Part shown: positions 16,050-64,000 of the stretch, in pieces | How the letters are laid out: every line of letters starts with the position of its first letter | How positions within the stretch are numbered: the stretch's first letter is position 1 | Translations under genes and position numbers: made by a program | DNA from: Astropecten irregularis | Lineage: Eukaryota; Echinodermata; Asteroidea; Paxillosida; Astropectinidae | Reading direction: 5' to 3' | Length of the DNA: 64,000 nucleotides | NCBI GenBank assembly: GCA_963971285.1 | Contig: OZ020248.1 | Span: forward strand, 4,402,001 to 4,466,000 | The notes under the pieces: generated by a model | Databases searched by the model: none | The model's input: the letters and a program-made list of their open reading frames with translations, nothing else | Told to the model about the DNA's origin: nothing

Positions 16050-16322
16050 CGTTGGGGTTCGAATGGGGAGCAGAGAAAGGAGCAGGATTTGAACCTGCAA
16101 CCTCCAGAACACTGTACCGGTGTTAACAATGCTTAATTGGTCCTTGGGATATAGCAGTATGTGAGTGGTTTCATGGCTTCTGACTGCCAAATGAACAAAG
16201 ATTATAATTGACTATTAGGGACACCACAAACTGGGTAGTTCAGTTGGTATAGAGCACCGAAACGGTATTCTGGAGGTCGCTGGTTTGAATCCTGCTCCAG
16301 TCAATTTTTCTTTCTTCACTTT
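16050..16322. repeat. head-to-head pair of tRNA-derived SINEs, family A
   Basis: A minus copy (16060-16135, GGAGCAGGATTTGAACCTGC) is followed by a plus copy (16155-16322) with head TTTCATGGCTTCTGACTGCC, A-box TAGTTCAGTTGGTATAGAGC and B-box CGCTGGTTTGAATCCTGC. Confidence 0.75.
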
Positions 16323-24776: not shown

Positions 24777-27700
24777 CTATAGAAACTCCTTATATGCGAC
24801 AGTGGCAGCATCTTGATGCGTACAGACGACCAACACCTGCTTGAACTTCTCAAGCAACATGTAGACTTGTGAGCGGTTGACGTTCTCGTAATACATGATC
24901 TCCTCTAGGTGATGTCGACCACGGAAGTAGGGACTCAGTCTGCAAAGAATGGATTCAAAAACAAAGAGTGCATTTCAATTTCAACGTCAGAGGGTATGTG
25001 ATCAGTTCACAGGGAATTGGGTATTTGTGGAGACACCATGTATAACACTCATCTTGGAAGGTGTGTGGTCCTGAGAAGGACCGGTGAGAGTAAGTTCTGT
25101 AAGGAGCAAGGAGAACTTGCTCTCATTGGTCCTTCCAAAAAGAGAGTTGTACATGGTGTCTCCACAAGTCTTACTCAATTCTTGTTACTCTACAATGCAA
25201 AACGTCAAATCCTATTTCACAGGGGGTTACTGCAGAATGGCAAACCCATGATGCCTGTGCTATTTAGTGCAATAGTCTTACTAGTATGACTACAGTAGCA
25301 AACTCCATCAATAAAAGACTCCCTAAGAACAACAAGAACCCAAATGGACCGTTCCGGCTTACCCTCTTAAGCCCCGCCCACAACAACGGGCCAATTGGTT
25401 TGTGCATGTTTTACATACCGCATATCAAATCAGGTAATGGACGGAAACGACTGTTTAGCAACCACTGTTTAGCTTAAATGGTCACATGATTAAAAGGCCT
25501 CCTCCAATTGGTCAAAGCGCACAGTTTGATTGACAGACCGAAAGGGTCCATTCGCTGCTAAAGCACAGGGCCCAATTGAACGGCCCTGCTTAGCACAAAA
25601 ATTGGCTAAACATTTCTGTCTTAATAAAAAAACAGGATTAACAACCAAATTTCCATGCATTGTGTATCACTTGTGATTGTTCTTTGGCTGTTGTTCGCTG
25701 ACCATGATGGCAAAACAGAATTTTAATGGTGGTTTGTTTGATTGGGCAAGACATTTTTGTGCTAAGCAATTTTTTGTGCTGAACAGCTCTATGAAATTGG
25801 CCCCGGAACTTTTAACCCTAGCCAAGCTTTCACTGACCTTCCCGAGACATTTGCCTTTGCTCACCAAAGCTTTGAGCTTTTGAGTGAGCCTGAGCCTGAG
25901 CCCAAGACATTTGTCTTTGCTCACCTTGCGAATAACTTGAGGTCCTCTGGTTTCTTGGCTGCAGGTATGTTCATGACGCAGTGCCTCTCGGCTTCCGTCA
26001 GGTTCTCCTTTAGCATGTCCATGAATTTCTGTCGGCTGTGGGTATGGCCTTCGTCCAGGGACAGCGTGGAGTAGGAGTCCAGGCTCGTGCTCAGTTCGTC
26101 AGAGTCCACTACGGAGAGACACAAGTTCTGGTCAGAATTTACGTTTTGGTTTTTGACAATAACGACTGAAAGGTTCACGCTATACATTGTGATCGATTTC
26201 ACATTTGTAACCTGAGGTCAATATTTTATAGACTTGCTAAGCATACAAATCTGTTATTAAAGGTGCCTTCTATGTTTGGTTTTTGTCAAAGAAATGCAGA
26301 TTCATGGGCAAAATCATCAAGACAGATACAGTAACAGTCATCTGTGAACATTTCCAGTCCCATACGGTGCAAAATTTTTGACCTTTTCACCAATAGGTTG
26401 GAAGTGTGCAGTGAAGGTATATGAGAAATGCATTGTGGGACAGTTTGTGCAAAATCCCATATGCCAGCTATCCACCAAAAGGGTATAATGGCCGCTAGCA
26501 ACAGCCTACTGGTGTCTCCACCAATCTCTGTGTTGAGAATGAGGTGGTCCATTTTGGGAGGAAGAGAGGAGATTCAGGGCCTTTTCGAAGCGGAGGCTCA
26601 GGCTCAGGCTCAGGCTCCGGCACCATCTCGTGATTCCATTCTAAAATAACGGGTATCAAAATAGAGGCTTTTGGCAGCAGATCAAAAGTAGATTCTCTGG
26701 TTTGAAAAGGAAAACAGAGCCTCAGCTCCAATGAAAAACCACAATCCATATTTTCAGGATATGAATGCCGGAGCCTGAGCCTGAGCCAGAGCCAGAGCCA
26801 AAAGCCAGAGCCAGAGCCAGAGCCTGATCCTGCCCTGTGCCTAAGTTTCGAAAAGGCCCTCAGATAGGTAGAGGAGCTGGGGACAGAGACAGACTGGTAT
26901 ACTCACTGGACATGTTGTCTGCTACCAGGCCCGAGGAGCTATGATGCGACGGGTTAGTGCCAGCGGAGCTATGCTTGTCCTGAGAGACAGAAGACGATGG
27001 CGATGCTCGAGTGCGACTGTCTTGCAGATCCAGGAACTGACTCGGCTTCTCAGCTGGAATCATCAGGAATACATAGGTGTGGAGCTACAAAAACAAATCC
27101 AGACAGGATTGTACCGACATAGTTGACCTTTGGACCTTTGTCCCCACTTCCCCAACTCTCGGGGTAAGACCAAAACCATTCTTTATGTTTTATAAGAAAA
27201 AGTGAGTCGGTTTTTCGCTATTTTCTTGTGACTCAGATGTCCGATTGAGCTCAGATTTTCATAGGTTTATCATTTCATGTAAATGTACATGATGGATCAC
27301 ACAAAGTGTGAGTGCTGTTCTGTGACCTTTACCAATCATGTATTATAATAAGAGAATGATGATGCACACACACCTGTATGAGTAGTCTCTTTTGTAGAAG
27401 CCAGACAAGAATTTTAACCTTTTCAGCCTCGTTCTGCAAATACAAAACATGTTTTCATCATTAGGTAAATAATAGTGTTTATAATATATTCCTGTTAAAT
27501 CGTATTCACAGCCATTTAGATCCTTGGTCAACTGCATTTTAAGTCCACAACCTTTCAGTTTTGTGGCCTTCTAGATGCACACCATTTCATTTCAACAGCC
27601 ATCCAGTTCCACAGATTTTCAAATCCACGGTCATCCAGATCACAGCCTTCCTTAATCCAGTTTTAGATCCACACCCGTCTCGGTCTACAGAATTTTGAGT

Positions 27701-30700: not shown

Positions 30701-33700
30701 TGGCTGCAGTCACTGGCTAGTGGCTGCCATAGGTGCGTGTGTAATTTGCAGCCGTAGCCAGAAATTTGGGACACAGCCTAAGGTTTGCAGTGATTCCATA
30801 TGATACTCTTTAGCGCCAACTAGTATGCTCTGACCATCAAAGGCAGTAAGTTCATCTCAATCAAGGAGTAAATGGTAACTGGGGGCCAATTTCTCTAATG
30901 CTTCGCAATCATCTCTAAAGTCCAAATGCATCGCTAAATGGAATATCAATCGCTACTTTGTGTAGCAATTTTCCGTTTCGTGATGGATTTGGGCTTTAGC
31001 GATGATTGCAAAAGCGGTAGTGAAATCGGCCCCTGAACTCCATATCTGTGTCATAAATATGCATGAGATGAGGTCAAGTGAGGTCACATACCCTGTATAC
31101 ACATCTCTGAGGTCTCGACACAGCTTGCTCTTCATCAGCATTATGGAGAATGGAGACTCTTCAGCATCTGAAACAAACAAACAAAAGAACAATAACACCA
31201 GTGAGATAACACTCCTAAAGTGCAATTTATATCAAACATGAGCAGAGATTGGAAAGATCTGTCATTCTTTTCTTCTTAAACTTTGCACAGACCGAGGATC
31301 CTATACAGGGTAACTCCCCTAATTATAGCCATTTAGGGTACATTTATTGTTCTCTCATTTGGTCTACTGTTCTACAACCTTCCATAGATTTTAGGTTCCT
31401 CTTTAGGATACCTCCCCCTAATAAGATACCTCTCATTTCTGCTCTTTGTTCTCCTATTTCCCATAGGTTCATTGGGTACCTCTCTTCATAGGGTACCTCA
31501 ATTGACTCTTCGCTTTGTTCTTTCGTTCTCTAAATTCCCGTAATCTTAAGTAGAACCTCTATTGCTCTCCTCTTTGATCTACTGTTCTTCGACCTGCGAT
31601 ATACTTTGTGTGCCTCAATGTGATACCTTCCTCTTATAGGAAAGCTCTTTTGTTCCTCCCATTGGTTTCTCAAGGTTACTACCCCTTAAGGGTATCTTTG
31701 CATTGTTTTCCCTTGGTTCAGTAACTCCCTAACTCCAATACACAGGGCATACAATTTTACATCATTTGACCTCCTGGCTTCTTGAGCACAAACTCAACAA
31801 AAAGAACGTTTGCAACAGGTGTGACATTGTACTCCTTAAGTTTACCTTCTGGCATGGCAGCTACTTCATCGTGAGCGGACATCATGACCACCGCTTGATG
31901 GCTGAGATACCCACAACGTCTCTCTTCGTGTTTCAGGGCCAGGACAAGACGCTTGCTCAGGTCATGATAACAACCAACCACTGAGGGATCAGCGCTGGCC
32001 TAAAATAAATGAATATTCATGATAACAATCAATGACTGACTAATCAGCACTGGCCTAAAGAAAATGAATATTCATAATAACAACCAACCGCTGACGGATC
32101 AGCACTTGCCTAAAGAAACTGAATATTCATGATAACAACCAAACAATGACGGATGGCCTAGAACAAAAATGAATATTCATGATAACAACCAACCACTGAC
32201 AGATCAGCACTCGCCTAAAATAAATGAATATTCATGATAACAACAAAGTTGGGCCATCAAGCCCCATGTAAAGTTACAGTGCCCTGACACTACAGAAGCA
32301 TCCTCCAAAGTCCTACTGAGCCATGAGTTAGGATGGTTTCACAGGGCCAAATTTGTTTAATCTCTTTCTGACATTGCAGTTTCCCCGAAAATGATATTGA
32401 CAGGTGTATCTGTAATAAATGCAAGGTTGTAGGAAGGTATGTGAGGTTTAACTTACATGAAGCACAAATACTAGATTGAACATAGTCATGGTGCGACTCT
32501 CTCGTCTTGATACTCCGTCCTGACGTCTCTGTCACAGTCAAAGAAACATGGAATTACAAAGGCTTGCCAGAACAACGGTGAGGCAAAATATTTTGAATCG
32601 TCAGCAGTTTGAACACAAAAATCTGCTTTAATTTAAAATTATCATCAAATAACCACAAAGGGTAACCGACTGGATTAATTCAAGTCATTGAAAAGTGATA
32701 AGAGAAAAATTGACTGGAGCGGGATTTGAACCAGTGACCCCTGGAATACCGTATCGGCACTCTACCAACTGAGCTAATCCAGTTCCCCTGTGGAGACTGT
32801 GGCAATCTGTGGTAAGCAGCTCTTATCATGTGTGATAGATGCAGAGGGTTAGGGTTAACAAAGTCACTAATACAATATGGATTAATCAATCTTCTGGCTC
32901 ACTACCAAGTTTGTTCTTCTAAAAAATAATTACATGCTCACCCATTTTCTGCCACCTCCGACTATAAGGGTAGGCTGACCAACAAACTTGACATCGTCAA
33001 TGGTCAGTTCAAATCGGTGGTCACAGAGACCCGTCTCAGTGGTCAGTATGTGGGCCAGGATTTCATCTGAATATCTAAAGGTCAAGACATCAACAAAAAG
33101 AGAGAAGAGCATCAGATATTGAAGTGAGAGAAATCTCAGCGGCACAAAGATCTTGTACCAATCTGGTGGTGCCATTCAAAATTAGAAGGTAGGTGCAAAT
33201 GGTTCTTCATATATTCTGCATCATCGAAGTCACGCAACCAGTTACTCTCCTGAGGACGAACAGAGCACACTGTTCGGAATGTCGAGATAATACCTACGGT
33301 TCTTCTCAGAACCACACACTCTCACAGAAGAGAACATGGTGTCACCGCAAACCTACCTTCCTTTCATGGATGGATATCGGAGAGCCTGGGGATGATTTTG
33401 GAAATCAGAAACAAATTGATGACACAAAAATTTGTTTCTGTTTTTCATTTCCAACACATCCTCTTTAACTGTCCTCTTAAAAAGTGTTTTCTCGTAATTT
33501 ACTGATTGCGACCAATTTTGACATGCCATCAAATGACTTATAGTGGGTATTTTTTCACCTTATTTTGCACAGAGCCGAGGTGGAAACGTCGAAAGAATGT
33601 AGACGATTTAACATTCTTCTTTTGCTCGTTTTCAATGCCGCGCGCTCTGTGCAAAATAAGGTTAAAAAATACCCACTATAAGTCACGTGTCATGGCATGT

Positions 33701-39700: not shown

Positions 39701-41013
39701 GAGTTTGTAGAAAAGTTGTCACGTTCTTTTTAGCACCTGATTAGGACGGTAACAGGTCAACTCGCCCCCTAGCCGACTCGCCCCTTACCGACTCGCCCCT
39801 TACCGACTCGCCCCCTGACCGACTCGCCCCCTGACCGACTCGCCCCTTACCAACTCGCCTCCTGGCCGACTCGCCCCCTGGCCGACTCGCCCCCTGACCG
39901 ACTCGCCCCCTGACCGACTCGCCCCCTGGCCGAATTTTGTGTTTTTGTCCTTATGACGATGTTTTTGAGTTTTTGTGACTCTTTGAGATAAAATGACAAT
40001 TTTGTTGTTTTATTATTCGATGTTCTTTCTTAACATATTTTTGTATCATTTTGTTTTAAAATGTCTTGCTTTAACTTGAAGTGTTATTGTTGACATTTTT
40101 TGTAGACTTGTTTTTATTATGACGATATGTTTTGTTCTATGGTTTGTTTTAAGTGTTGTTGTTCACTTGTTTTTCTTGTTTTTAAGTTGCGTTTTTGAAT
40201 TTTTGATGTTTTTGGTTCTGCAAAGGAAATATTAATTAAATTGCTTGAACTGCAATCGAACCATGCAGGAGTTTGTGTGTGGACTTTGTGCATTTTTCAT
40301 TCTTAATCATAAAATGTTTGACATAAACACATAGTAGGCCCTACAAAAGGGTGAGAAGCATTTGGTTATTAATTATGATGCCTAATTAACTTCGCATTTT
40401 GCATCTCATTTCTGAATAAATTAGGGGGCGAGTTGGCCAGGGGGCGAGTCGGTCAGGGGGCGAGTCGGCCAGGGGGCGAGTCGGCTAGGAGGCGAGTTGG
40501 TAAGGGGCGAGTCGGTCAGGGGGCGAGTCGGTCAGGGGGCGAGTTGGTAAGGGGCGAGTCGGTAAGGGGCGAGTCGGCTAGGGGGCGAGTTGACTTGTAA
40601 TCATTAGGACAGACTCGCTCAGCCGCAAATGTTTTCATTATTCAGGAAAAAAAATTCACAAAAAAAAAAGCTTTGACCTGCTTTTGACCGCAGGTAATTT
40701 GACTATAGAGCCTAGAAAAGTAGAAGCTCGCGGAGGAACCTTTCTAAATCTAGTATCTGAGTTCGAATTATCGAGGTTTTACTCTGTACGTGCACTAGCT
40801 ATCTACCAGTACCACCCCACCGTACCAGTCCCCATCCCGATGGGGTTACCGTAAATAACGATCTCCAGCTCCGCTTTTAATGTCGGTGTACTCACTCTTT
40901 TGCACCACCTCTTTGTCACTTTCCTCCTGGTAAGGATATCGGAAGAGAAGTCGGTTGCCCTTTGAACCTGAAGACACTAGAATCACGCTGAGTGGGCTCG
41001 GTTTTCCAGGCAT
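24777..41013 (-). CDS. NPRL3: GATOR1 complex subunit NPRL3, 14 coding exons
   Basis: Subunit of GATOR1, the GAP complex that inhibits TORC1 at the lysosome when amino acids are scarce. In transcript order the exons are 40896-41013, 34245-34338, 32942-33074, 32457-32528, 31846-31999, 31092-31167, 30508-30613, 29782-29973, 28986-29092, 28155-28275, 27374-27433, 26907-27084, 25925-26108 and 24777-24939. They sum to 1758 nt (585 aa plus stop) with every phase matching; human NPRL3 is of similar size. The N-terminal longin-like domain opens with [20 protein letters not shown]. Further blocks are [97 protein letters not shown] and the C-terminal [16 protein letters not shown]. Intron 1 is 6.5 kb and holds a Tigger-like element. 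Exon 5's acceptor lies in a tandem array. The gene is divergent from the 41459 gene and convergent with MPG. Confidence 0.96.
25025..25168. repeat. foldback related to the ACATGGTGT family
   Basis: TTGTGGAGACACCATGTA at the left is mirrored by TACATGGTGTCTCCACAA at the right. The centre holds GGTCCTGAGAAGGACC-type inverted tracts. NPRL3 intron 13. Confidence 0.8.
25568..25804. repeat. palindromic MITE, GGGGCCAATTTC family
   Basis: Ends are GGGCCCAATTGAACGGC (diverged) and AGCTCTATGAAATTGGCCCC. The interior matches the 7643, 27719 and 58710 copies. NPRL3 intron 13. Confidence 0.8.
26577..26859. mobile_element. 283-bp MITE with GGCTCA hexamer-expanded ends, TCA target duplication
   Basis: The ends are GGGCCTTTTCGAAGCGG and the inverse of GGGCCTTTTCGAAAC. 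TCA flanks both sides (26574-26576 and 26860-26862). The subterminal regions are runs of AGGCTC/GAGCCT hexamers of different length at the two ends. It sits only about 50 bp from NPRL3 exon 12, in intron 12. Confidence 0.8.
27719..27959. repeat. palindromic MITE, GGGGCCAATTTC family
   Basis: It begins GGGGCCAATTTCATAAAACT and ends ATGAAATTGGCCCC. Internal landmarks are GCTTAGCACAAAAATG, GTCAGCGAACAACAGCC and TGATACACAACACATGG. NPRL3 intron 10. Confidence 0.85.
28738..28830 (+). repeat. hammerhead-core-like repeat, copy A
   Basis: CTGATGA (28738-28744), one base, the stem GACTAG-agcatg-CTAGTC, then GAAACGTTGAGACG, and downstream the GTGGTGTTTCCGCAAAC terminus. NPRL3 intron 9. Confidence 0.65.
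29264..29488. repeat. long foldback with hammerhead-core-like centre, copy B
   Basis: A near-perfect hairpin. The left arm (TGTGGATAAGTTTGCAGAAA, ACACCATGTAAGAATCG, TCTCAACGTTTCGACTAG) is mirrored by CTAGTCGAAATGTTGAGAC, CGATTCTTACATGGTGTTTC and CGATCCACAT. The centre contains CTGATGATGAATAGAGCAGG. NPRL3 intron 8. Confidence 0.85.
30882..31034. repeat. palindromic MITE with GGGGCC(A/G)ATTTC ends
   Basis: It starts GGGGGCCAATTTCTCTAATG, ends GTAGTGAAATCGGCCCC, and has mirrored GCAATCATC/GATGATTGC arms. NPRL3 intron 6. Confidence 0.75.
31260..31740. repeat. degenerate pyrimidine-rich tandem repeat
   Basis: Loosely repeated blocks of about 100 bp (GGGTACCTC, TTTGTTCTCCTATTT, CATAGGTT). NPRL3 intron 5. 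Old and diverged. Confidence 0.45.
31965..32247 (-). repeat. 55-bp tandem array containing the NPRL3 exon-5 splice acceptor
   Basis: There are five units, at 31965-32019, 32020-32074, 32075-32129, 32130-32179 and 32180-32234, plus a short partial. Unit 1 contains the real exon-intron junction (exon 5 begins at 31999). The others repeat both the TTTAG acceptor and the start of the coding sequence for ASADPSVVG upstream in intron 4. Confidence 0.92.
32693..32795 (-). repeat. tRNA-derived SINE, family A, minus strand
   Basis: The reverse complement has an A-box-like AGCTCAGTTGGTAGAGTGCC and the B-box GGTTCAAATCCCGCTCC, followed by AGTCAATTTTTC. The B-box and tail are shared with the copies at 16155, 21738, 43196 and 62540. 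Confidence 0.75.
33230..33360 (+). repeat. hammerhead-core-like repeat, copy C
   Basis: CTGAGGACGAACAGAGCACA then CTGTTCGGAATGTCGAGA, followed downstream by the ACATGGTGTCACCGCAAACC terminus. The stem GAACAG/CTGTTC differs from the GACTAG/CTAGTC stem of other copies on both sides. Confidence 0.6.
33536..33683. repeat. foldback element, 37-bp arms
   Basis: The left arm ACTTATAGTGGGTATTTTTT with CCTTATTTTGCACAGAG is mirrored by CTCTGTGCAAAATAAGG with AAAAAATACCCACTATAAGT. NPRL3 intron 2. Confidence 0.85.
33880..34010 (-). repeat. hammerhead-core-like repeat, copy D
   Basis: Reading minus, CTGATGA is followed by GGACTAG...CTTGTG and GGAACGTTGAGACC. The other end carries the ACACCATGTAAAAATTG terminal motif shared with the 29264 and 48470 copies. 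Confidence 0.6.
34081..34224. repeat. foldback element
   Basis: Inverted arms: TTTTGCCAGCACTGGCATTA and AATTCTCAATACGTTATAC on the left, mirrored by GACGTATTGAGAATTGGC and ACAGTGCCGGCAAAATA on the right, with a short centre. NPRL3 intron 1, just past exon 2. Confidence 0.75.
34680..35052. mobile_element. mariner-type MITE, TA target
   Basis: The ends are CAGCGTGTCCCCCC...CGCAACACTTT and, inverted, CAGGGTGTCCCAAAAAATGC...AACACTTT, flanked by TA on both sides. Internal inverted similarity (ACCATGTAGAATTTAAGC against the GCTCAAATTCTACATGGT tract) makes the whole element fold back. It lies in NPRL3 intron 1. Confidence 0.78.
35277..35402. repeat. two-module interspersed repeat, copy left of the transposase
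   Basis: Module X (contains GCTGATGAGCAGTTTGCAGC, then TTTATTAC) is joined to module Y (contains GGCCCTCC and a CAGGACC/GATTCTAG palindrome-like tract). X recurs in inverted orientation at 37627-37680, and related copies lie at 5405-5456 and 54100-54215. Confidence 0.7.
35658..37241 (-). CDS. Tigger-like transposase, intact ORF but missing one catalytic Asp
   Basis: A 527-aa ORF starting [16 protein letters not shown]; the frame is open further upstream, but this is the natural start. Residues about 7-57 form a psq/CENP-B N-terminal helix-turn-helix ([19 protein letters not shown]). Residues about 70-135 form the second CENP-B-type DNA-binding domain ([15 protein letters not shown]). The DDE/DDD catalytic domain follows with [11 protein letters not shown] (Asp ~180), then [10 protein letters not shown] where the family normally has DNCPAH (Asp replaced by Lys at ~288), and [10 protein letters not shown] (Asp ~319). 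The C-terminal 150 residues are strongly acidic. Known Tigger enzymes need all three acidic residues, so this copy is probably catalytically dead even though it has no stop or frameshift. It could be a recent immobile copy, a trans-mobilised copy or a DNA-binding protein under retention. Coding density and GC content differ clearly from the surrounding intron. Confidence 0.9.
   Translation of the reverse strand: MNKPPRKLKCLSLGEKIKLIGQVDNRGVKRKKVDIAKKWNIPQSTLSTIMKNKETLIALFEKQSCAPDRKRMKTAAHPDVEEALMMWFKAACVENIPISGPVIQEKARSLAKMLGHGDFTCSSGWLDRFKTRNNIIFRRGRVIAGEGAAATTKEMTSDWMTKGLPDVLSMFEARDIFNADETSIFYQLLPDGSPICNEETCCDEKCSQEHEERLTVMVCANMDGSEKLPLLVIGKSKKPLCFTNVKSLPTQYEANEMAWMTSDIFEAWVRDVDELYHKKKRKIAIVSKNCPAHPYITGLKNVKLVFVPLSTTVKLQPMDQGIIQNLKTHFRHHMITALLEALRKNERYNPTVLDAMILLRSSWKKVKDTTIANCFQLAGFKMEATTQDSEDAIQDTEDTDEDEQDAVPENNNIPEDDDLFDQLREAGLDVPQDTTLESYAAIDDNISYTIVLNDDAIDEISSSVKNEEEDNEESTSPPPEIVSISEAMLSLDKLRNFALQNENASHMFDLIIDIEEVIDRIRKTKSL
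37627..37735. repeat. two-module interspersed repeat, copy right of the transposase
   Basis: Module X is inverted relative to the 35277 copy (AACTGCTGCAAACTGCTCAT), followed by module Y in the other relative orientation (AAAGATCCTGCCGGAATC, then GTCAGGCCCTCC). Confidence 0.7.
38391..38432. repeat. short perfect-looking hairpin
   Basis: CCATGGAGGAAGGAAAAG is followed after two bases by its near-exact reverse complement CTTTTCTTTCCTCCATGG. Confidence 0.75.
38491..38714. mobile_element. 224-bp MITE, ATA target duplication
   Basis: The ends are GGGCGTTTACGAAACGG and the reverse complement of GGGTGTTTACGAAACGG. Both sides are flanked by ATA (38488-38490 and 38715-38717). It shares its interior with the element at 26577-26859. 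Its ends run into GGCTCA/TGAGCC-type hexamers. Confidence 0.75.
38740..39740. other. no gene beyond the Penelope fragment
   Basis: From 39190 to 39740 I see no coding or repeat structure that I can support; it is the interior of NPRL3 intron 1. Confidence 0.5.
38753..39135. pseudogene. rearranged Penelope-like retroelement fragment
   Basis: On the minus strand 38753-39010 encodes [20 protein letters not shown], then [13 protein letters not shown] and [11 protein letters not shown]. This is the linker and start of the GIY-YIG endonuclease domain of Penelope-like elements. Immediately beside it, on the plus strand (39043-39130), is [14 protein letters not shown], which matches the segment that normally precedes that linker (TPLVVTYHP-type). 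The two pieces of one protein are thus inverted relative to each other, so the copy is broken. Family assignment is from motif memory. Confidence 0.7.
39748..40602. mobile_element. 855-bp palindromic element with iterated terminal repeats, 8-bp target duplication
   Basis: The terminal inverted repeats (39748-39935 and 40424-40602) are each about 12 degenerate units of CGACTCGCCCCCTGAC type (15-16 bp). The order of unit variants in the right arm mirrors that in the left, so the arms are homologous. The outermost bases are GGTAACAGGTCAACTCGCC at the left and the inverse of GATTACAAGTCAACTCGCC at the right. ATTAGGAC is duplicated at 39740-39747 and 40603-40610. The 490-bp AT-rich centre has no ORF. 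An 8-bp duplication fits hAT-like elements. Confidence 0.88.
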
Positions 41014-41458: not shown

Positions 41459-44400
41459 ATGGAAGTTGCTCTGCTAAAGGTACATATTTTATACTTACCC
41501 GTCCTTGTCGTTTGATTTTATATTCCCGGTTCTAATTCCAAGTTCTGTGGCAAAATAAAACCCATTGAGGAGAAAAAAGGTCTGTCAGAAAACCTATAAC
41601 TAAAACAACCGCAACTGTTTGTGCACAAATCAATTGGGTTACTACAGTTTTTTATTGGCACATGTCCAAGCCATAATATTCCCATTGCAGAGACCCTTTA
41701 AAAATGGTAAGATGAAAGCAAGTTATTTAACTATTGCTTACCAGGTAAAAATTATGTGTACATGCATAGTTTGAATTGAAAAGTCAAAACCTAATTGAAA
41801 AGGAAACCCTTTTTTTGACTTAGGTCATTCACAATTTGAAGGGCAGTGTGCTGGATGAAAAAGACATTGCTGCACTTCTGCAAGATGATCATGAAGATAA
41901 GAACTCTTCAGCATCCTCATCGTCGGCTGAAGGAGGCAGTGATTGTTCCTCCATTGGCACGTACCCTTCAAGTCCATTCTATAAATACATTGCTCGTCTG
42001 TTGCTGGCTTGGATGGAAACAGGGTAAGTGGGTCACCCCTAGAAAAAAAAACTCATTCCTGGCCTAATTGGTCCTCGTCTTTCCTGCTTCAAAACTACCA
42101 AACTGAAATAATAATAAAATAAGGTAGATTTGTGGTAACACCATGTAGTCTCTTCTGTGAGAGTGTGTGGTTCTGAGAAGAACCGATGGTATTTTCTTGA
42201 CATTCCAATCAGTGTGCTCTGAAACAAAATATATCATGGAAATAATGCCTTGTTTGAATGAGTGTGGCATTATTTGAGATGTGCTGGAAAGTGGAATCAT
42301 TATGCCGTTTTTAATTTTGTGCTTTAGACTCTAGGGCCTGACATTTTGACCCTAGTAGGATCTTTCTCAAAGGCTAAAAATTGTCAGCTTTTGAGAAAGA
42401 TAAAAATGTCAGGTCCACTGTTCCACTAACTCTTTAGGTTTATACATGTACATGTATTAGTAATTTAGTACATTGGTTATATAATAACTTGCAGCTTGCA
42501 GCAGTCTTGTTGCTTATATTGAACCCCTTAATAATATTGTAAATCTATAATGCTTTCCATCTTTTGATTGTGAAATTTGTTTCAGGATTTCGTTTTGAAG
42601 AGAAAGAAATATATAAGTTGAACTTGTATGAAGTTGAACTTGTATTTGAATTCCTTTCAGGTTGATATTAAATGTGTAGGCCTATCCATTTTGTTTCTGT
42701 AGAGAGTGCCCAATTTCCAAGCTTTCAGCCTTTGACTGTTTACAAGAAGGAGACAATGTGAGCAGAAGGTAATTTTAAAATAAATTGGTTTTAACTGTAA
42801 GCTTTTCTTAAAAAAAGAAATTTAAACTCACAAATGTTTTGAATTTTCAAAACTGTATTAAATACCAAAATCCTGAACGCGAAATAATGCTTGATTATAT
42901 AAAACAAAACACAGGTAATTGCCTTTTTGTTTTGGTGTTGTTTAAAAATGTTTATATTCACTTATCTCAATTGATTGTAGGAAGAAGGTTTTTAGATTAG
43001 TTGGTGAGAGGCTTCTGTTACTCAAAGCATCCTGGACTGACATTGATGAGGAATGGTTGCAAGCTCAGCTCTATGGCATGATTGAGGTGAGTGGAAATTT
43101 GTGACTTTCTAGGGAAATAATGTCAAATTTGACGAGATAGAAACCGTTCTCAGGTTGCAGCATTGCTGCACGTATCAATGAAATGATACTTGGGGTATGG
43201 CGGTGTGTGCGTGGTTTCATGGCTTCTGACTGCCAAACGAACAAAGGTAATTGACTGCTAGGGACACCACCAACGTAGGGCTGGATAGCTCAGTAATAAA
43301 GCGCCTGTACGGTATTCAGGAGGTCGCTGGTTCGAATCCAACTCCAGTCAATTTTCTTTGTTCACTTTTAAATTCAGTCAGTTTCCCTTGCGGTTATTTG
43401 ATGAGATAGAAACGAGATAGAAACTTGCAATCTTGCTAAGATTGCTTGTATTCGATTAAATGATTTATAGTGTAGTGCTCATCTACGTCAGTGAAGGGTA
43501 ATAAATAATTTGCATAATGCAATTATCTTTGTTCGTTTGGCAAAAGAATCACTAATAACAACGATATAATGTGGGTATTTTACAAAAACCTGAAAACAGA
43601 AAACTTATGTTGATGGCAACTTAACCCAACAGGGATTTCTGTGACCAAATTCCCCAGCTCCGGCTCTTTTTATTTTTGTTTAAAACTGTTTTCTTCTTTT
43701 TCGATAGTTTGTCCCAAATGAGACTGTTTCCCGTACTCTGAAAGTGTCCACATTGCCCCATTAGTAGCATCTGGAATTGGACATTTTCTTCAAAACCAAT
43801 CATACTTTCTTAAAAAAATGAAATAGTTTCCTTTCCCTATAGATCATGATTATAAACAGGCCTTCCTTTTTGGCCTTGTGCATTTTGACTCCAGCTACTT
43901 TGCAAAGTCTGCAACTATGTCAGGAGAATTTCTCTTTGGAGCTATCAGTCATGCTGTATTGACAAGTCAAGCCTTTGAGTCCACTGAAAATGTAAATAGC
44001 GCCCTCTTGCAGGATTGTGTGTACCGTATAATAGTTTAGAAGTTCATTGATTTGTGTGAGAGTAGTTTCATGTAGAGTGCCATAAAACACTTACTGTACT
44101 GCACTCTGTACCTGTCATAGGGCGTTTAAGAAATGGAGGAGAATTTCTCTTTGGAGCTATCAGTCATGTTGTACGGTATAGACCGATCTGACGGCACGAT
44201 ATACTGTCCGCCATTACTGGAGTGTCCCCGCCTGCCTTTTGTCTGGCAACAAAATAATTTACGCTCTGCCGCTCTCTATAATTGCAGGGTGTATGTCCCA
44301 TGATTAGGGGACGTATACCCTGCAGTATAGAGTGCGGTGGACGGAGGACACACCAGTAATGGCGGGTGTTTCCTACCTCCATGCATGGTCGCACCGTCTG

Positions 44401-47400
44401 ATCGGTGTATTGACAAGTGTGCCTTTGAGTCCACTGAATATGTAAACAGCGCCCTCTTGCAGGATTGTATTCTTTAGAAGTTCATTGATCTGTGTGAGTG
44501 TAGTTTTATGTGGAGTGCTATAAATCACTCACTGTGCCGTACTCCATAGCTGTCATAGATGTGGAGTTTTTATGTCAATGTATTTTGTGCGTTTGGCTTA
44601 TCAACGGATCTAGCTGAGGCACTTGATACACAGACATGACGATTCAAATAATAACCTTGAAAATGAAAGGTTTGTGCAAAACAATGTAAAATGTAACCTG
44701 CCGGCACCGAATGATTATTAATGAGACACTGGGTGTCATTTTATACCTAAGGCAACATTCTGTAGGAAAATATCAAGCTTTGAACTGACAAAATTAATGG
44801 AAACAGCATCTAAGTGCATGATACCACTGGAAAGCTATTTTCCAACTAGTACTAGTGGTAAGCAGGTTCAGGTCGAGGGGACCCCTTTTTCTTCCAGCTA
44901 AAAAAAAGGAAAAGAAAAGACAGAAAGAGGAAAAAATAATATAAAGAGAGGGAGAAAGACTCAAAAAGAGAAGAAAAAGAGGGGGAGACAAAATGAGCTA
45001 GCTTTGAATGGCCCAAAATGCATCCGTCGCTATTGAATTGGCGCATTTTATTTCCATGCCCCCTTTTGGAAAATCCTCGATCCGCTCCTGGTTAGGCAAT
45101 CAATTTGATGGGTGACTTTGGACACATTTTGATGGGTCAGATGGGTCTCTGGTTTTTTTTTTTCATTTGATTTCTTTTTTATTCACTTTCCTCTGTTAAG
45201 TATTTGAACCTACAACCCAGCCCAAGAAGATTAAATCAGTTCAGTACGTACATTTATGATACCATGAGAAATTGATATCGTGGGAAGAAATATTGCCCTG
45301 CAAAAACGTCTATTGAGAAACAAATTGACTGACATCATCCCCAGGGTCCGTTTCAAATAGATCCTGCCGAACCCCAAGGTCAAAGGTCAGCTGTTCACTA
45401 GGGACCCAATGGCAGTGGTAGTTAATCATTATTAGGGTAATTGCTATCACAGATGGGATATATGTTGATTTTTTGTTTTTAATAGAATTTCTGAAGGGAA
45501 GTTAGGAAACTTTCTCTATAAGGAAAACTCCCAAAATGACATCTTTTGAAATGAAAATGGTCTTGGTTGCTTGATATTCAATTTGTGAAAGGATTTTTTG
45601 TTTGGGGGTTTGTACTGTACAATCAATTGTACTAATTAAAGTTAGTCTTGTTATCAAGTTATTAACTGCGGTTTTGTACCAGGGACTTATGGGCAATGTT
45701 GGAAACGTTTGGCATCCGACCATGTGGCGGTAGCCTTGGCCATACTATAACGCAGATATTAGGCCTATGAAATGCCCACGAGATATGAGCATTTTTTTAA
45801 TAAGATTACCATCTTGGCTACCGAGGCAGAAAAAAGTCTTGATTTATCGTGCCAGTGCCAGAGCAGAGCATCTGGGTTGTACATAGAAAATCTCAAGGAC
45901 CCTAGTACCGTCAGTGCCAGTTTCTTCAATTAACGTGTAATCCCAACGGGTGATTGGCAGTAATTTCTTTTGATGGTTTTGTCCGTGAAAACATCCAAAT
46001 GGTCACCACCTGGTAGTGGTAGCTTGGTGCTTACGGACAGGGAGGAGGAGGGAGAGGGGGGGGGGTGAAGGTACACATCTAAGGAATCACAACCAACATA
46101 AAACTTCCTTACTCTATGATCCAACATTTTGTAGATTGTTGCGGTTCTGTCATTTTGGGGTTATGGCAGAACCAGGGATGGGGGGGGGGGGCTGGAGCTT
46201 CCAATACAAGGGTTCACAGAGGCAGACTTTAAGGCAAGGGGGAACAGGATGACAGGAGTATTTGCTTTATTTATGTGTAAATTGTCCACTTCAGGCCTAC
46301 AGTAATATGGTGAAGAGAAACAGAAAACTGTATCACAGTATTGCTGTTGCCCCGGAGCTGGAATAATTTTACTAAAATCCTGTTAGATTTAAACAAGTTA
46401 CAGACCTTTTTGGGGTGTCAAAAAGACTAGAAAAACTATCATAAAGGCTCAATTACTATGGTGCTTGAATTGAATTTGTTTGGGGCAAAACTTCAAATTG
46501 ACCTGACAAAGTTACCTTGAACATCATTTTTGGTTAAACTCATATTGAAGTTATATAGACCCTTGTTGGAAAAAAAATATGCATTGATGCAGACTCAATT
46601 AGACGTCCAGTCGCACAGTCACACTGAAAAAAAAATGTTGTGGATATTATTGACAAAGTGCAACAGCATCACGAACTGAAAAAAAATATAAGACTCCTTT
46701 TCCTTTGCATCTGTTCATGTCTGCATAAGTGTCATTGAGCTTCATTACATTGCATGCAAGAAGGAAAGGTTTATGTGAATCTGTGATGTACATCAATTCA
46801 ATCAAATCATGTAGGATGAAACTCAAGGCTATCTAGTGCCAGCAATATAATGTGGTCTTGTAATTTACGTCTCAGTCATGCATTTTCACTGAGCCAGTCT
46901 TAGACATCTTTCCTACTCTTCATCTTATAAACTGTCAAACGAATCAAAATTTCATACCGAGCCCATATAGCTTGCTGAAGAGTTGATAAGTTGCTCTGCA
47001 TCGGTCTTTTCATGTTGTTCCCAATATCTTTCTCTTTTCTAAAATGCTGGATGAGACAGAAAGATGCTGCAGGGAGCAACACTGGAACAAACAGAAGATA
47101 CAAGGAACAAAATGGAGGGCCTGTGATTGCCTCGAAGGCTAAAGGAATTCTTTGCATCCAGAAAATAAAAACGAATTTCACAATGTCCTCTCAGAATTTC
47201 TGAACCCAGTCCCAAATCTGTGCTGAGAGATTTTTCCAAGCATGTCAGAAATGAAATGATTTACTACCAGTCTATAAAACGCAGCCAGTGCAGAGGTTAC
47301 TTGTATATTGCCTAAAATATCTCTTCAATCTTTACCCCTAGTGGAGAAAATGTGCACTAGGAGAATATAAAAGCAACATTTTCACTGATGGAGGAAGGAT

Positions 47401-50400
47401 GTCTTGTCAGATTTCAAGCAGTTAACATTATTTTTCCCCCTGCATAGCCTACCTACCTGTAGTTAGCAAGATACATCGAGTGCTTGCTAGGCCCAAGGAG
47501 TACACAGATAAAGATATAATTCATGGTTGGTAAAGGTCTTACCCCAAGATCAAAACTGTTTTCGGTCTTTTTTTGACTAATTTCTGGATAAATACACCAT
47601 TTTATTTGGAAATATTTTAACGGTATGTTTCTACCAGCACCATCTTCATATCCTGAAAGTTATACACAAATTTGTCAACATTTCTGTTTGGGCATGTTAC
47701 CAATCCTGTACTCTTACTTTAAGAGAAAGCATAAAATTAGCTCTGTCACATTTTTTGACCACAAGTTTTCGAAGCCAAGTCTGATGCTGTGCACCTGATT
47801 TCACCTTGGTAATCATTTACATCGAGAGAGAGGGGGAGAGAGTCATCACTTCACACGATTGCAGAAAGAGATCAATTCAGACTTCAAATCAATTGGTACC
47901 TGGTTTTCTCATTAGCACGGACTCCTCAAACTGCGGCCTCGTCAAATTTCAGTGACTCTGATACCACCCCTCCTTCTGTCAGGACAAGAAAACCAGGGCT
48001 CGCTGTCGCTGAGGTTACAGAAGGTCGTTCATTGTTTACTTTAATCATAATTCCACATTTGTTTCTTGGTCTGCTCCTCCTTTTTTTTTCTCGGTTTTGT
48101 GATCAACGAGTGAACAAATGTCTGCCTTGCAGGCGGATAGATTAGAATGATGATATCAGGATATGTTTAGTATAGCAATTGAAGTATATGTTTGTCATTA
48201 GAATCTGGGAATGCTCAGAATGTTGTCATGTTAGAAAAACAATTTGATGAATGAGCAATTTGGTCATTCCCCTAAGAGAAGTTACACTGTATCAAGGTCA
48301 CTCTGGATGTACTGTACATCAGTAACTGCTCAAGATTTTGCCATGAAAAAAAAACATCTGTGTTTGTAGATCTGTTCTAGATTTCTTGTTCAAATTTTTG
48401 TTTTGTTTTTTGCACTTTACAAGAACTTTTTTCTTGGAAGATTTGAGGCTTTTTGAGGATTATTACATGGTGTTTCTGCAAACCGATCCACATAAACTGT
48501 TTTCTTCTTAGAATGAATTGTTGATTCAGTGAAACTTTGTTTTGCCATTTATTTAGCATCATTCTTAAGTTATTCTCGGGGCAGCTTCAAGGAAAATGTG
48601 CTTAATAGCTGAACATGGCTTGCAATTTAAAGGTAGTATCATACTTTGGTAGGAAACCTAAACAGAAATCTTCACAGATTTTCCTATAACTAATACAGGG
48701 TATAAAGATGGTGCTGGTAGAAATAAATAGATGTAGGCCTATTTATCAAGAAATAAGTCAAAGCAACGACCAAAAATATTTGTGATCTTTAAAACTAGAT
48801 AAAAATAACTGTGAAAAGATTAAGAAAATTCTGTGGCCGTTTTTCACTGTTTCCTCAAAAAGTTGGCACCGTATGGGACTGGGAATTTCACAGAACTATG
48901 TCTTTAATTGTATCTTTCTTGATATTGTTGCCCATGAATCTGCATTTTGTTGACAAAAACCAAAGTATGATATTACCTTTAAAAAAGCTTAGGTTGTAGG
49001 TCATGATGGCACTTGATGCTTATTGCTTGTTGCTTAGTCACTACGATTTATTTTTTGTTCTGTACATATCAGGCATGGAACATTTCCTCAGATCGGCTGA
49101 TTTCCTCGTTTTTCTCATTAATACTCATGCCATTGATTAAAGAAAGACACTTCAAAGATAAGAATTTCCTTGTTTTGTTAAGTCTGAGCGGCATGCCTGA
49201 CATATTTTGTAAAAATATGTTTTATTTTTGTTTTCCTGGACAGAAGAGTTGTATCAGGAAAGATTTTTGTTCATCATCTTCACAAACTTGGTCTTATTTT
49301 TGTCTCACTCAGGACATTGGAAAGCGAGGACTGCTCGACCTCCTTGCCATGAGGCAGACTGTTGGTAGTTTGGATTTGTTTCCTCCACTCAGGCAGATTC
49401 TGGAAGGCGGCTTCAGACAACAGCACAAGTGAGTCGCCGAGAAGCTGTAGCTCCAACATTTAGGTCATCAGTTCTTTGGGTTTTCAGGACTTCAGTATGG
49501 GAATCAAACCTTTATTGGATTTTCCAGAAGGTTTAGTTGTTGTCTTTTCCCTCTCTGGTCATCATGATGGGATTGTCAAAATGCTGAGAAGGGGGTCCCT
49601 CCAGATGCATGTTCAAGGAGCAATCAGGGGTTTTGCCAGATTTATTCTACCCACATCAATTTGTTCTCTTGAGACCAAGTTCTTGGAAGTGCATGAATCC
49701 TGAGAAAGGGGTCCTTTGAGATCTATGGCTTCATCATTGACATCTAGGAGTAGGAAGGAGTTCCATCTTCCAGATGTGGGACTGGAAAACCTCTTCTAAA
49801 AGCAGAGTCCATCCATTTACTGTTACCACCACCCACTTCTAAGTTTTGTGCTACATTTCTCTCCCTCTGTTCCCAGACCAAGTGCCAGGTTGACCGTTGG
49901 GGCCAGAGCACTCTCCAAGCACTGCCACCGGGACCAGACTAGCAGTTGGTGGGGTGTGTCAACAGGAAGTAAGAGCATGAATCTGTCTAACCCATGAGTA
50001 CCTATAGACACAACAAGATATCATGTTGTAATAGCATTCTTGACTTGGAAATGAAGAAAATTCATTGATAACCTTTGGCCTGAGATCCAGGGAAAAGATT
50101 GATTTCTTGGCAATATCTGAACATAGGTTCATAAAGTGTCATCTGTCGGAAATTTGGTACAGGATCGTCTGAAATTTAGTACAGGATCGTCTGAAATTTA
50201 GTACGGGATCATCAGAAATTTAGTACAGGATTGTCAGAAATTTAGTAAAGGATTGTCAGAAATTTAGTACAGGATTGTCTGAAATTACAGGATTGTCTGA
50301 AATTACAGGATTGTCAGAAATTTAGTACAGAATTGTCTGAAATTTAGTACAGAATTGTCCGAAATTTAGTACAGAATTGTCCGAAATTTAGTACAGGATT

Positions 50401-52908
50401 GTCTGAAATTACAGGATTGTCTGAAATTTAGTACAGAATTGTCAGAAATTTAGTACAGGATTGTCAGAAATTTAGTACAGGATTGTCAGAAATTTAGTAC
50501 AGGATTGTCAGAAATTTAGTACAGGATTGTCAGAAATTTAGTACAGGATTGTCAGAAATTTAGTACAGGATTGTCTGAAATTACAGGATTGTCTGAAATT
50601 ACAGGATTGTCTGAAATTTAGTACAGAATTGTCTGAAATTTAGTACAGAATTGTCCGAAATTTAGTACAGAATTGTCCAAAATTTAGTACAGGATTGTCT
50701 GAAATTACAGGATTGTCTGAAATTACAGGATTGTCTGAAATTTAGTACAGAATTGTCCGAAATTTAGTACAGAATTGTCCGAAATTTAGTACAGAATTGT
50801 CCGAAATTTAGTACAGGATTGTCAAACCTGACTGCAACCTTTCCTGCTCATATGTCTCAGAGTTTTCTGGTCGCAGATGTTTAATCTCTCACGGGCACAT
50901 CCTTCCTGTATCTGACGAGCCCTAATGTTACATAATACCTGTCACTGTGCAGTCTGCTTATCAAAATCCCATGGATCATATCTGTATTTCAGCAGACATT
51001 GCCATAATATCTTCTTGTGTTTTTTGTTTGTTTCTTGAATGATTTATCTCCAGCTTTTATTAGTAGAAAGGATTTTTATCAGGTTGTCCTTGCAAGAAAT
51101 TGGTAGGCTGATAGTGTTCGTCACAGGGATCTAGTGAAACATTCCTCCAAGTTCTGCACAGCTGCATGCACTGGAGCAGAAATGTAATTTCATAGCTGAA
51201 AAGCAGCTGGCATAGAATTGGGGGAGGGGGTGGGGGAGGGGGAACTTGGCAGTTCCCATCAGATTTGTAAGAAAAAAGCACCCATGTGGCTATCTTTCAG
51301 ATTTCATGGAGCCGTTAAGCAAACAAAAAATGCTTAGCACAAAATGTCTTGATCAATTAAACAAACCACCATGAAAACTAAGTCCATTTGATATTTATGG
51401 TCAGCGAACAACAGCCAAAGAACAATCACAAGTGAAGTGATACACAACACATGGACATTATTTGTTAATCCTGTTTTATTAAGACAAAAATTTCATACTT
51501 AGCAAATGTATGTGCTAAGCAGGGCTGTGAGATTGGCCCCTATTGTCTCCTTCAACTTTGCTGAGCTCCGTTTTCAAGTTTAGAGTTCTTGCATGCCTAT
51601 AATCAGGGGCCAATTTCATAGAGCTGCTTAAGCACCACCATTTGCTCAAGCACCAAAAACCTTGGTAAATGAAATCAGTATGCCAACCAAATCTCCTTGT
51701 GAATGTTATGCTCAGCAAACAATGGCCGAATAAAAGTCAAATGTAGTAAACATCACATGACAATTTAGTTGGTTATCCTGTTTGATCAAATGAGACTATT
51801 ATTCATGCTTAGCAAATTTTGTGTTGAAGCAGCTCTATGAAATTGACCCCAGGTTGGTCCTTCTCTCCTTACCATGCGGTGAATCTTCTGGGTCCTTACA
51901 ATGTCCGCACTTCCCTTTTCTTGTTAACATCTACTTAGCTGAACAAGCCAAGAATGATCATGCTGACGATATACTCCTGAGGATTCTTGATGATGTGGCC
52001 TGGATAAACATCCACAGCCTGCCTGTAAGTTGTTTTACTCTCCGACCACAACCTAGTTTTCAACCAAAGATCCTATAGTCTACTCAGGTCAAAGAGTGAA
52101 GTGTCACTCGGCCGCCATTTTAGTAAGCAACATAGCTACCTCTGGTGTTGTAAACGTCAATTGTATGAGGACGAACCTTTCACCCGAACAATGATTGTTA
52201 TTATAATTAAGGCCCATTATTATTTCTTATTCCGCAAGAATCACACAAGAACTGAAAACAGTAAATTTGGCTTACTAAAATGGCCGCCTGTGCGTGCTTC
52301 CTCTGGTTGCGCGTGATTTTGAAAGAGAAGACTATCTTGCACAGCTATAGGATCTTTGTTTTCAAATAACTTGCTAAAGCTGCATTTGAACTTTTATGGA
52401 TGTATTTTAGATTGTTTGGGCATGGAGTATTAAGGCTCCATGGTTTAGGTAATATGCATCCTTATATGTTTTTTTTTTCACAAGCAATTTAGATTTATTC
52501 AATGAAATTTGAAATGACAATTTTCAATTTTGTGGTGATGGATTCATATTCAATTCTTTTCTGGGCTAAACAAGCTGAACTGATATTTAATAGCCACCTG
52601 CCTCCAAGGACATGTAATATCCATTTTTCTATTACTATGCATTTCGAATTAGAAGAGAAACAAGACTGCTGAAAATGTCCATTCGTTGAAATTATTGAAG
52701 GTTACCTCTCTTAGATCTAGTGGCAATTAAGTCATTCCTCTTAAGATACAAGGTACTTGATGTTTTGTAATTACAGCATGAGGTTCAAACTATAGAGGTG
52801 AGGAATACTTTGGGATATGGTGCTCGTTGGTCTGAGGATGGTAGTACCTTTAGAGGATTTCTTGAGCCTCCTATGGAGGATGGGCACCAGGCTGGCTGGA
52901 AGCACTGA
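41459..52908 (+). CDS. conserved-looking protein of unknown function, 272 aa, eight exons
   Basis: I cannot name this gene. The exons are 41459-41479, 41824-42023, 42703-42768, 42981-43086, 49313-49428, 49877-49968, 51939-52024 and 52777-52908. They are GT-AG throughout, all phases agree, and they give 819 nt. The start has G at -3 and +4. The first exon encodes only MEVALLK. Residues ~30-52 are acidic/serine-rich (DDHEDKNSSASSSS), followed by a helical, leucine-rich middle (FYKYIARLLLAWMETG, LVGERLLLLKASW) and a C-terminal half with many Trp, His and Gly: ARALSKHCHRDQTSSWWG, DDILLRILDDVAWINIH, then LGYGARWSEDG, FRGFLEPPMEDGHQAGW and a stop. The dense conserved-style C-terminal motif suggests a soluble, widely distributed family. 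There is no signal peptide or membrane span. The end of the last exon seeds a 3' UTR minisatellite. I am sure it is a gene but not of its function. Confidence 0.88.
42127..42235. repeat. fragment of the ACATGGTGT / hammerhead-core-like family, copy E
   Basis: TTGTGGTAACACCATGTAG, GTGTGTGGTTCTGAGAAGAACC, then CATTCCAATCAGTGTGCTCTG, which is the reverse complement of a truncated core. Confidence 0.6.
42327..42412. repeat. module Y repeat copies, inverted pair
   Basis: GGGCCTGACATTTTGACCC, AGGATCTTTCTCAAAGGC, then inverted TTTTGAGAAAGATAAAAATG and TCAGGTCC. Intron 2 of the 41459 gene. Confidence 0.65.
43196..43375 (+). repeat. tRNA-derived SINE, family A, best-preserved copy
   Basis: Head TTTCATGGCTTCTGACTGCC and AACGAACAAAGGTAATTGAC; A-box GGATAGCTCAGTAATAAAGC; B-box CGCTGGTTCGAATCCAACTC; tail CAGTCAATTTTCTTTG. 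Intron 4 of the 41459 gene. Confidence 0.82.
43919..44530. repeat. direct duplication of ~170 bp, second copy carrying a MITE
   Basis: GAATTTCTCTTTGGAGCTAT through GCGCCCTCTTGCAGGATTGT and GTGAGAGTAGTTTCATG is repeated (43922-44090 and 44147-44525). The second copy is interrupted by the element at 44174-44407. Confidence 0.8.
44174..44407. mobile_element. 234-bp MITE, TA target duplication
   Basis: The ends carry inverted GACCGATCTGACGG and CCGTCTGATCGGTG. TA flanks at 44172 and 44408. The empty site is preserved in the upstream duplicate (GCTGTATTGACAAG). Confidence 0.8.
47536..47725. repeat. partial AAAGGTAGTATCATAC MITE
   Basis: GATCAAAACTGTTTTCGGTC, CTGGATAAATACACCATTTT, then TACCAATCCTGTACTC; left end missing. 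Confidence 0.65.
48440..48500. repeat. terminal fragment of the ACATGGTGT repeat family
   Basis: GATTTGAGGCTTTTTGAGGA, TTACATGGTGTTTCTGCAAA and CCGATCCACAT match the ends of the 29264 and 33880 copies. Confidence 0.65.
48629..48982. repeat. AAAGGTAGTATCATAC MITE, full copy
   Basis: AAAGGTAGTATCATACTTTG at the left; CAAAGTATGATATTACCTTT at the right. Intron 4 of the 41459 gene. Confidence 0.85.
50140..50826. repeat. minisatellite of mixed 18- and 22-bp units
   Basis: About 32 units of AGGATTGTCAGAAATTTAGT-AC (22 bp), with interspersed short AGGATTGTCTGAAATTAC units (18 bp). Blocks of variants recur in the same order, showing higher-order duplication. Intron 6 of the 41459 gene. Confidence 0.92.
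51301..51540. repeat. palindromic MITE, GGGGCCAATTTC family, diverged left end
   Basis: ATTTCATGGAGCCGTTAAGC at the left; GGCTGTGAGATTGGCCCC at the right; interior GTCAGCGAACAACAGCC. Confidence 0.75.
51606..51850. repeat. GGGGCCAATTTC MITE, second subfamily
   Basis: GGGGCCAATTTCATAGAGCT and CTCTATGAAATTGACCCC, with a different interior (CAAGCACCAAAAACCTTGGT, ATGCTCAGCAAACAATGGC) shared with 56573-56816. It ends only ~90 bp before exon 7. Confidence 0.8.
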
Positions 52909-53990
52909 GGATTGGTCATCTAAGGATGGTAGTCCTCTCAGAGGGCTCTCTCAGAGGTTTCTTTAGTCTCCCTTGGAGTATGGGCATCAGGCTGGATGGA
53001 AGCACCAAGGATTGGTCATCTGAGGGTGATAGTCCTCTCAGAGGGCTCGCTTAGGGGGTTTCTTCAGCCTCTCATGGTGGATGGGCACCAGGCTGGATGG
53101 AAGCACTGAGGATTGGTCATCTGAGGATGGTTGTCCTCTTAGAGGGCTCTCTTAGAAGGTTTCTTTATCCTCCCACGGAGGATGGACACCAAGCTGGATG
53201 AAAGCACTGAGGATTGGTCATCATCTGAGGATGGTAGCACTCTCAGAGAGCTCTCTTAGAGGGTTTCTTTTATCCCACGGAGGATTGGCATCATGGCTGG
53301 ATGAAAGCACTGAGGATTGGTCATCTGAGGATGGTAGTCCTCTCAGAGGGCTCTCTCAGAGGGTTTCTTTAGCATCCCACGGAGGATGGGCACCAGGCTG
53401 GATGGAACCACTAAGGATTGGTCATCTGAAGATGATGGACCTCTCAGAGGGCTCTCTCAGAGGTTTCTTTAGTCTCCCACAGAGGATGGGCATCAGGCTG
53501 GATGGAAGCACTAATGATTGGTCATCTGAGGATGGTACTCCTCTCAGAAAGCTCTCTTAGAGGGTTTCTTCAGCCTCCCATGGAGGATGGGCATCGGTCT
53601 GGATGGAAGCACTGAGGATTGGTAATCTGAGGATGGTAGTCCTCTCAGAGAGCTCTCTTAGAGGGATTCTTTAGCCTCCCACGGAGGATGGTCACCAGGC
53701 TGGATGGGAGCACCGAGGATTGGTCATCTGAGGATGGTACTCCTCTCAGAAAGCTCTCTTAGAGGGATTCTTTAGCCTCCCACGGAGGATGGGCATCAGG
53801 CTGGATGGGAGCACCGAGGATTGGTCATCTGAGGATGGTACTCCTCTCAGAAAGCTCTCTTAGAGGGATTCTTTAGCCTCCCACGGAGGATGGGCATCAG
53901 GCTGGATGGAAGCACTGAGGATTGGTCATCTGAGGATGGTAGTCCTCTCAGAGAGCTCTCTTAGAAAGTCTCCTTAGCCACCCACACAAA
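52831..53990 (+). repeat. 101-bp minisatellite derived from the last coding exon, about 12 units
   Basis: Units start near 52831, 52919, 53019, 53120, 53224, 53324, 53425, 53525, 53626, 53727, 53828 and 53929. The first unit (88 bp) is the end of the coding exon of the upstream gene, including its TGA at 52906. The later units are about 101 bp because they gained about 13 bp of TCAGAGGGCTCTC type. The array runs through the presumed 3' UTR to a possible AATAAA at 54029. Confidence 0.9.
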
Positions 53991-54099
53991 GTAAATAGTT
54001 TCAAATGTACATAAATTATGAGCAAGTAAATAAAAATATTAATATCAATATAAATTTGCATATTATATTTTTTAATTATGATAATTTTATCAATACTAG

Positions 54100-62539: not shown

Positions 62540-62680
62540 TTTCATAGCTTCTGACTGCCAAACGAACACCGCCAAAACATGGCTGGATAGCTAAGTTGAT
62601 AGAGCGCCGGTACGGTATCCTGGCGGTCGCAGGTTCGAATCTCGCTTCAGTCAGTTTTATTTATTCAACTTTAACGAACA
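62540..62680 (+). repeat. tRNA-derived SINE, family A
   Basis: Head TTTCATAGCTTCTGACTGCC; A-box GGATAGCTAAGTTGATAGAGC; B-box CGCAGGTTCGAATCTCGC; tail CAGTCAGTTTTATTTATTC. Confidence 0.8.
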
Positions 62681-63858: not shown

Positions 63859-64000
63859 CCTGCAACCTGTGGATTGCAACCTGTGGATTGCAACCTGTGG
63901 ATTGCAACCTGTGGATTGCAACCTGCGGATTGCAACCTGTGGATTGAAACCTGTGGATTGCAACCTGTGGATTGCAACCTGTGGATTGCAACCTGTGGAT
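63859..64000. repeat. 14-bp tandem repeat running off the window end
   Basis: About ten units of TTGCAACCTGTGGA, with single-base variants (CTGCGGA, TTGAAACC). Confidence 0.95.

Follow-up and report, generated by a model that had tools for sequence, protein, structure and literature searches.

Beyond the stop codon of a predicted gene in the starfish Astropecten irregularis lies a tandem array whose units resemble the coding end of this very gene. The locus is part of a stretch of 64,000 nucleotides, the window, and all coordinates given here refer to it. It raises the question of how copies of a coding end could accumulate behind a stop codon and whether they have any consequence for the protein. 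The locus is informative since the likely seed is still located beside the minisatellite and is readable as codons, which makes the order of duplication, insertion and amplification traceable. It also suggests how a coding end can become 1.1 kb of likely untranslated region while the frame of the gene itself stays open.

Gene model and last coding exon

A gene model of eight exons and 272 amino acids was assembled manually, with open frames and splice sites as guides. It extends from 41459 to 52908, ends with a TGA stop codon at 52906-52908 and comprises the following exons:

41459-41479, forward strand: exon 1 (MEVALLK), ATG (start assumed), donor AAG/gtacat; the shortest and weakest part of the model
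41824-42023, forward strand: exon 2, acceptor acttag, donor gtaagt
42703-42768, forward strand: exon 3, acceptor ctgtag, donor gtaatt, phase agrees
42981-43086, forward strand: exon 4, acceptor ttgtag, donor gtgagt, phase agrees
49313-49428, forward strand: exon 5, acceptor actcag, donor gtgagt, phase agrees
49877-49968, forward strand: exon 6, acceptor tcccag, donor gtaaga, phase agrees
51939-52024, forward strand: exon 7, acceptor cttag, donor gtaagt, phase agrees
52777-52908, forward strand: last coding exon, acceptor ttacag followed by CAT, open and in frame to TGA, ending FRGFLEPPMEDGHQAGWKH-TGA

The predicted product has the C-terminal end ...SEDGSTFRGFLEPPMEDGHQAGWKH. All seven introns are of the GT-AG type with consistent phases, a consistency that is not independent proof because the exons were picked for phase agreement. 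Since the protein has no match in Pfam, NCBIfam or PDB, the coding nature of the last exon rests on splice phase and on the openness of this model, which together make it plausible that the exon ending at 52908 is coding sequence, as the original prediction had stated. In detail, the 272-residue protein gave no Pfam or NCBIfam match and only a chance line in PDB (E 3.9). Its C-terminal pieces gave no Pfam match either, and the one other PDB line reached E 1.3. Ten other open frames compared with Pfam yielded three weak lines below the cut-off (uDENN, DUF3272 and PELP1_HEAT). An assignment of the gene to DUF4504 proved to be wrong, as the DUF4504 match sits on another contig. Searches of prokaryote genomes and viral contigs with short peptide patterns, which reach close relatives only, detected no relative. 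The C terminus may belong to a protein that is conserved among eukaryotes and has no known function.

A genome search with the whole protein found no paralog: its 16 matches correspond to seven exons of the gene itself and nine array units, the seven-residue exon 1 being too short to appear in such a search. When the last exon was used as query, 10 of the 11 matches fell into the exon and the array, and the other (E 1.0) is located on a different contig.

Two further elements were noticed within introns of the model. Intron 4 contains a tRNA-Thr-like sequence with the anticodon ggt (43279-43350), and intron 6 harbors a second minisatellite with a 22-bp unit in about 32 copies according to TRF (50144-50823), for which a 243-bp query found this one locus only in the genome search.

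Organisation and sequence of the array

The tandem arrangement was defined by TRF and by an alignment in which units were cut directly after the position of the stop codon. Behind the exon copy, ten full units and a partial one are arranged head to tail 3' of the stop (52909-53985):

52850-53985: minisatellite array (TRF: period 101, 11.2 copies, 87% matches, score 1641)
about 52823-52908, forward strand: part of the last exon common to the array units, 5' limit approximate (alignment)
52909-53918, forward strand: ten full units (100-103 bp), all carrying a 12-13-bp insertion and starting at 52909, 53009, 53110, 53211, 53314, 53415, 53515, 53616, 53717 and 53818 (TRF and alignment)
53919 to about 53985, forward strand: partial terminal unit of about 67 bp (TRF, alignment and genome search)

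Each unit is related to the last 86 bp or so of the coding exon. The tandem copies of the coding end and its stop that had been described beyond the gene are thus real and comprise ten full units and one partial unit. Copies of about 101 bp had also been said to shift the frame, which holds for the full units of exactly 101 bp (7/10); two units have 100 bp and one has 103 bp.

The exon shares 73-79% identity with the ten full units, and these share 81-98% with each other; both ranges exclude the partial unit, whose cut piece includes sequence beyond the repeat and reaches 54-75%. By alignment column, the TGA at the exon-equivalent position is kept in five of the ten full units, replaced by TAA in two and lost in the other three. 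A consistent difference is an insertion that is absent from the exon and present in every full unit (13 bp in eight, 12 bp in two); its sequence suggests a direct duplication of local origin. On reading the sequences by eye, three extra bases also seem to precede TGAGG in the units, where the exon has TTGGTC-TGAGG and most units have TTGGTCATCTGAGG; the alignment opens no gap at this point and scores mismatches instead.

The head-to-tail units, within the size range of about 10 to more than 100 bp, place the array among the minisatellites or VNTRs. The full units likewise show two features of pseudogenic exons, as they resemble an exon of the gene beside them and are disabled, by the insertion throughout and by a TAG in place of the glutamate codon of FLEP in 6/10.

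Among the units, U09 and U10 are the most alike (98%) and U07-U10 share 87-98%, which points to the 3' half of the array as the probable site of the most recent amplification. Identity neither rises nor falls systematically as distance in the array increases (Spearman 0.055, permutation p 0.63). The unit alignment and tree that had been proposed as a check set the exon, which lacks the insertion, outside the units: it forms the longest branch when analysed together with the ten full units in IQ-TREE, the tree being unrooted and having supports of only 36-72%.

A single locus

Searches of the 476-Mb genome gave 11 matches for the exon and 8 for a query of two units, all of them within the exon and the array; these counts are lower bounds, and very common words were skipped. 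The same tool recovered a dispersed repeat when queried with it (129 matches, 591 candidates). With one candidate region, the array behaves as a single-locus minisatellite and not as a dispersed satellite. Within the same lower-bound counts, the genome search showed no satellite elsewhere from which the coding copy could recently have been derived, a finding that would have spoken against the original prediction.

Origin of the array

We consider it probable, at roughly 0.8, that this is a local minisatellite that arose when part of the terminal exon was duplicated in tandem, the copy then becoming noncoding. What counts for this reading is the continuity of exon phase, the exon without the insertion, the single locus and the missing paralog. 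In such a scenario, about 85 bp, roughly the last 28 codons and the stop, would have been duplicated head to tail 3' of the stop codon. The daughter copy, free of coding constraint, would then have gained the 12-13-bp insertion and, if the reading by eye is correct, three further bases, the order of these gains being the one that we infer. Slippage or unequal exchange may subsequently have amplified this copy into the ten full units and the truncated terminal one, leaving the present array between the stop and the first AATAAA, with no evident function. The insertion shared by all ten full units and absent from the exon indicates a single common founder, by then already distinct from the exon. 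As a source of the founding event, slippage between the TGAGGAT copies at 52833 and 52906 was considered and does not fit, because these are 73 bp apart and a unit without its insertions measures about 85 bp.

The codon positions of the changes were examined as a possible trace of constraint. In a count that omits the first seven alignment columns, the exon and the unit consensus differ at 14 of 84 columns, namely at eight third, four first and two second positions. Changes among the ten units fall on 24 first, 20 second and 18 third positions (third 18/62), and the excess of third positions in the exon comparison is borderline (one-sided Fisher p 0.048, binomial p 0.058). As the alignment scores mismatches at the putative 3-bp insertion, the count was repeated without the ambiguous 5' columns, which left third positions at 6/10 (Fisher p 0.061); restriction to the part 3' of the insertion gave 4/6 (p 0.107). 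The test is small and fragile, and the pattern leans towards an exon under constraint and units free of it.

An alternative reading runs the other way: a tandem repeat already present 3' of the gene would have been recruited as exon sequence when one of its units lost the insertion and turned into the coding end. The divergence of about a quarter between exon and units, the need for an outgroup sequence to polarise them and the lack of robustness in the lean towards third positions leave some room for this course of events. We nevertheless regard it as unlikely: the common insertion, missing from the exon, has the look of a local duplication in a derived state, the coding frame extends from the part shared with the array a further 46 bp upstream to a consensus acceptor, and the genome search, with its lower-bound counts, showed units at this locus only. 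From these sequence features, the direction from exon to array is the likely one.

Probable placement in the 3' untranslated region

The first AATAAA after the stop codon lies beyond the array:

54029-54034, forward strand: candidate poly(A) signal (AATAAA)

Neither AATAAA nor ATTAAA occurs in 52909-54028, and the variant AGTAAA is present at 53990 and 54025, both past the array. A transcript of the gene would therefore be expected to carry the array as its 3' UTR, and we assume that it is probably retained there untranslated. VNTRs in the 3' UTR after the stop codon are present in SLC6A3 and other human genes; to our knowledge, such human VNTRs are not recognised as copies of a coding end.

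Its probable transcription, as judged from the position of the poly(A) signal, and the variable unit number of many minisatellites would suit a regulatory 3' UTR element, acting through structure or through protein or miRNA binding and dosed by copy number. The remaining evidence makes such a role improbable. Three of the ten full units were folded and were no better than shuffled sequences (z -0.76, 0.60 and 0.82; exon end -0.37), the whole array having been folded without a shuffle control. No Rfam family reaches its gathering score within the array, so that on three folded units and Rfam at gathering scores the array does not class as a structured RNA. In addition, the changes among units are spread over all codon-equivalent positions.

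Proposed exchange between array and exon

The original prediction had proposed that template switching or unequal exchange within the array could rewrite the C terminus of the protein. The array would then be a reservoir from which gene conversion or unequal exchange occasionally alters the coding end. The units do adjoin the exon in direct order, and two of them, U02 and U07, would be able to supply a near-native end that is open and terminated by a stop. However, all ten full units lie within 73-79% identity to the exon, none being conspicuously nearer than the rest, so that this comparison of identities reveals no recent exchange, and the exon is free of the insertion that all ten carry.

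Hypothetical joins, placed by alignment column, would mostly cut or alter the end. With a join 5' of the insertion, FRGFLEP...GWKH is lost with every one of the ten donor units. With a join 3' of the insertion, six of the ten donors bring a stop right after FRGFL (TAG for the exon GAG), U03 gives a short end and U04 a run-on, and only U02 and U07 keep ...GWKH-stop; an end of this kind is thus denied by 10/10 donors for the 5' join and by 8/10 for the 3' join. The proposed rewriting is therefore not borne out, and we hold a reservoir function to be very improbable. Rewriting from the two suitable units is possible in principle: if a unit of the U02 or U07 type were on rare occasions to exchange sequence with the exon 3' of the insertion, the last 15 or so residues would be swapped together with the stop and C-terminal variants would arise in the population, although we give such spare C termini equally little credence. 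If exon and units had exchanged sequence, this would be relevant to protein evolution; nothing in the present data shows exchange.

Open reading frame within the array

One frame stays open across several units:

53156-53560, forward strand: 134-codon stop-to-stop frame with an ATG at 53198 (ORF listing)

The stretch of 120 codons at 53198-53560 that had been pointed out earlier is the ATG-to-stop part of this frame and is real, but its length is not clearly beyond chance. Frames of at least 134 codons occurred in 3.45% of 2000 arrays with shuffled unit order and in 6.1% of 2000 column-resampled arrays, both control sets being built from the ten full units, which puts the observed length at the edge of chance. 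Translation of this ATG-open frame into a separate protein is the least credible reading of all, given the equally long frames in 3.45-6.1% of control arrays and a position downstream of the gene's stop, where readthrough of the TGA would append only the four residues GLVI before a TAA.

Relation to known systems

Two models of minisatellite initiation by local duplication have been put forward, and one of them predicts an incomplete terminal unit from slipped mispairing at noncontiguous repeats (PMC3389668). As far as the parts of that work considered here go, the present array is similar in its head-to-tail unit of about 100 bp, its local expansion and its incomplete terminal unit, although a truncated last unit can also have causes other than slipped mispairing. 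The seeds described there come from transposable elements, whereas here the seed would be the end of a coding exon with its stop (PMC3389668). Pseudogenic exons near genes include 45 human cases embedded in UTRs (PMC2718932). Like the array units, they are degenerate copies of an exon from the gene next to them and have been disabled through stops and frameshifts; in contrast, the copy described here became a tandem array, and the word tandem is absent from the main text of that report (PMC2718932). A partial tandem duplicate of coding sequence that retains the stop codon is known from su(f) in the Drosophila simulans complex (PMC7919458). According to the portion of that study used here, su(f) has one duplicate lacking only the first 12 codons, unlike the array of 101-bp units (PMC7919458).

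Among the titles and beginnings of abstracts listed by literature searches, none described a minisatellite originating from a coding exon end, which is no proof of absence in print. Taken beside the published initiation models, the exon copies in UTRs and the duplicates that keep a stop, the array is probably an ordinary case of tandem-repeat birth, of a known kind and with an unusually readable seed.

Further observations

Upstream of the gene model, a foldback-like element (39752-40598) has 176-nt arms that are 97% complementary and 495 nt apart, and it is made up of 16-bp tandem units. It has 591 candidate regions in the genome, and the 40 of these that were scored, its own copy included, matched over about 830-910 bp at 95-100%; with so many near-identical copies, the element looks recently active. 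A 14-bp satellite of ten copies (96%) occupies 63861-64000 and reaches the end of the window. Two weaker tRNA matches (16229-16303 and 62581-62653) are perhaps tRNA-derived repeats. A match to the histone 3' UTR stem-loop is located on the minus strand at 25042-25087 (35 bits against a cut-off of 34), and neither of the two listed ORFs of at least 90 amino acids in 24900-26400 looked histone-like.

Outside the window, three contigs carry COX1 sequences. On contig C131, which may be bacterial, a COX1 frame without internal stops occupies 32162-33484. A partial COX1 with seven TGA codons on C25 may be a nuclear insertion, and a COX1 with ten TGA codons lies on C168, which was taken as mitochondrial. 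The COI of C168 reads FFSTNHKD at what we take to be a conserved position, where AAA is Asn under table 9 and K under table 5, pointing to a code of the echinoderm/flatworm type; taken together, these features would suit an echinoderm. The same locus on C168 also holds frames taken for ND4L and COII.
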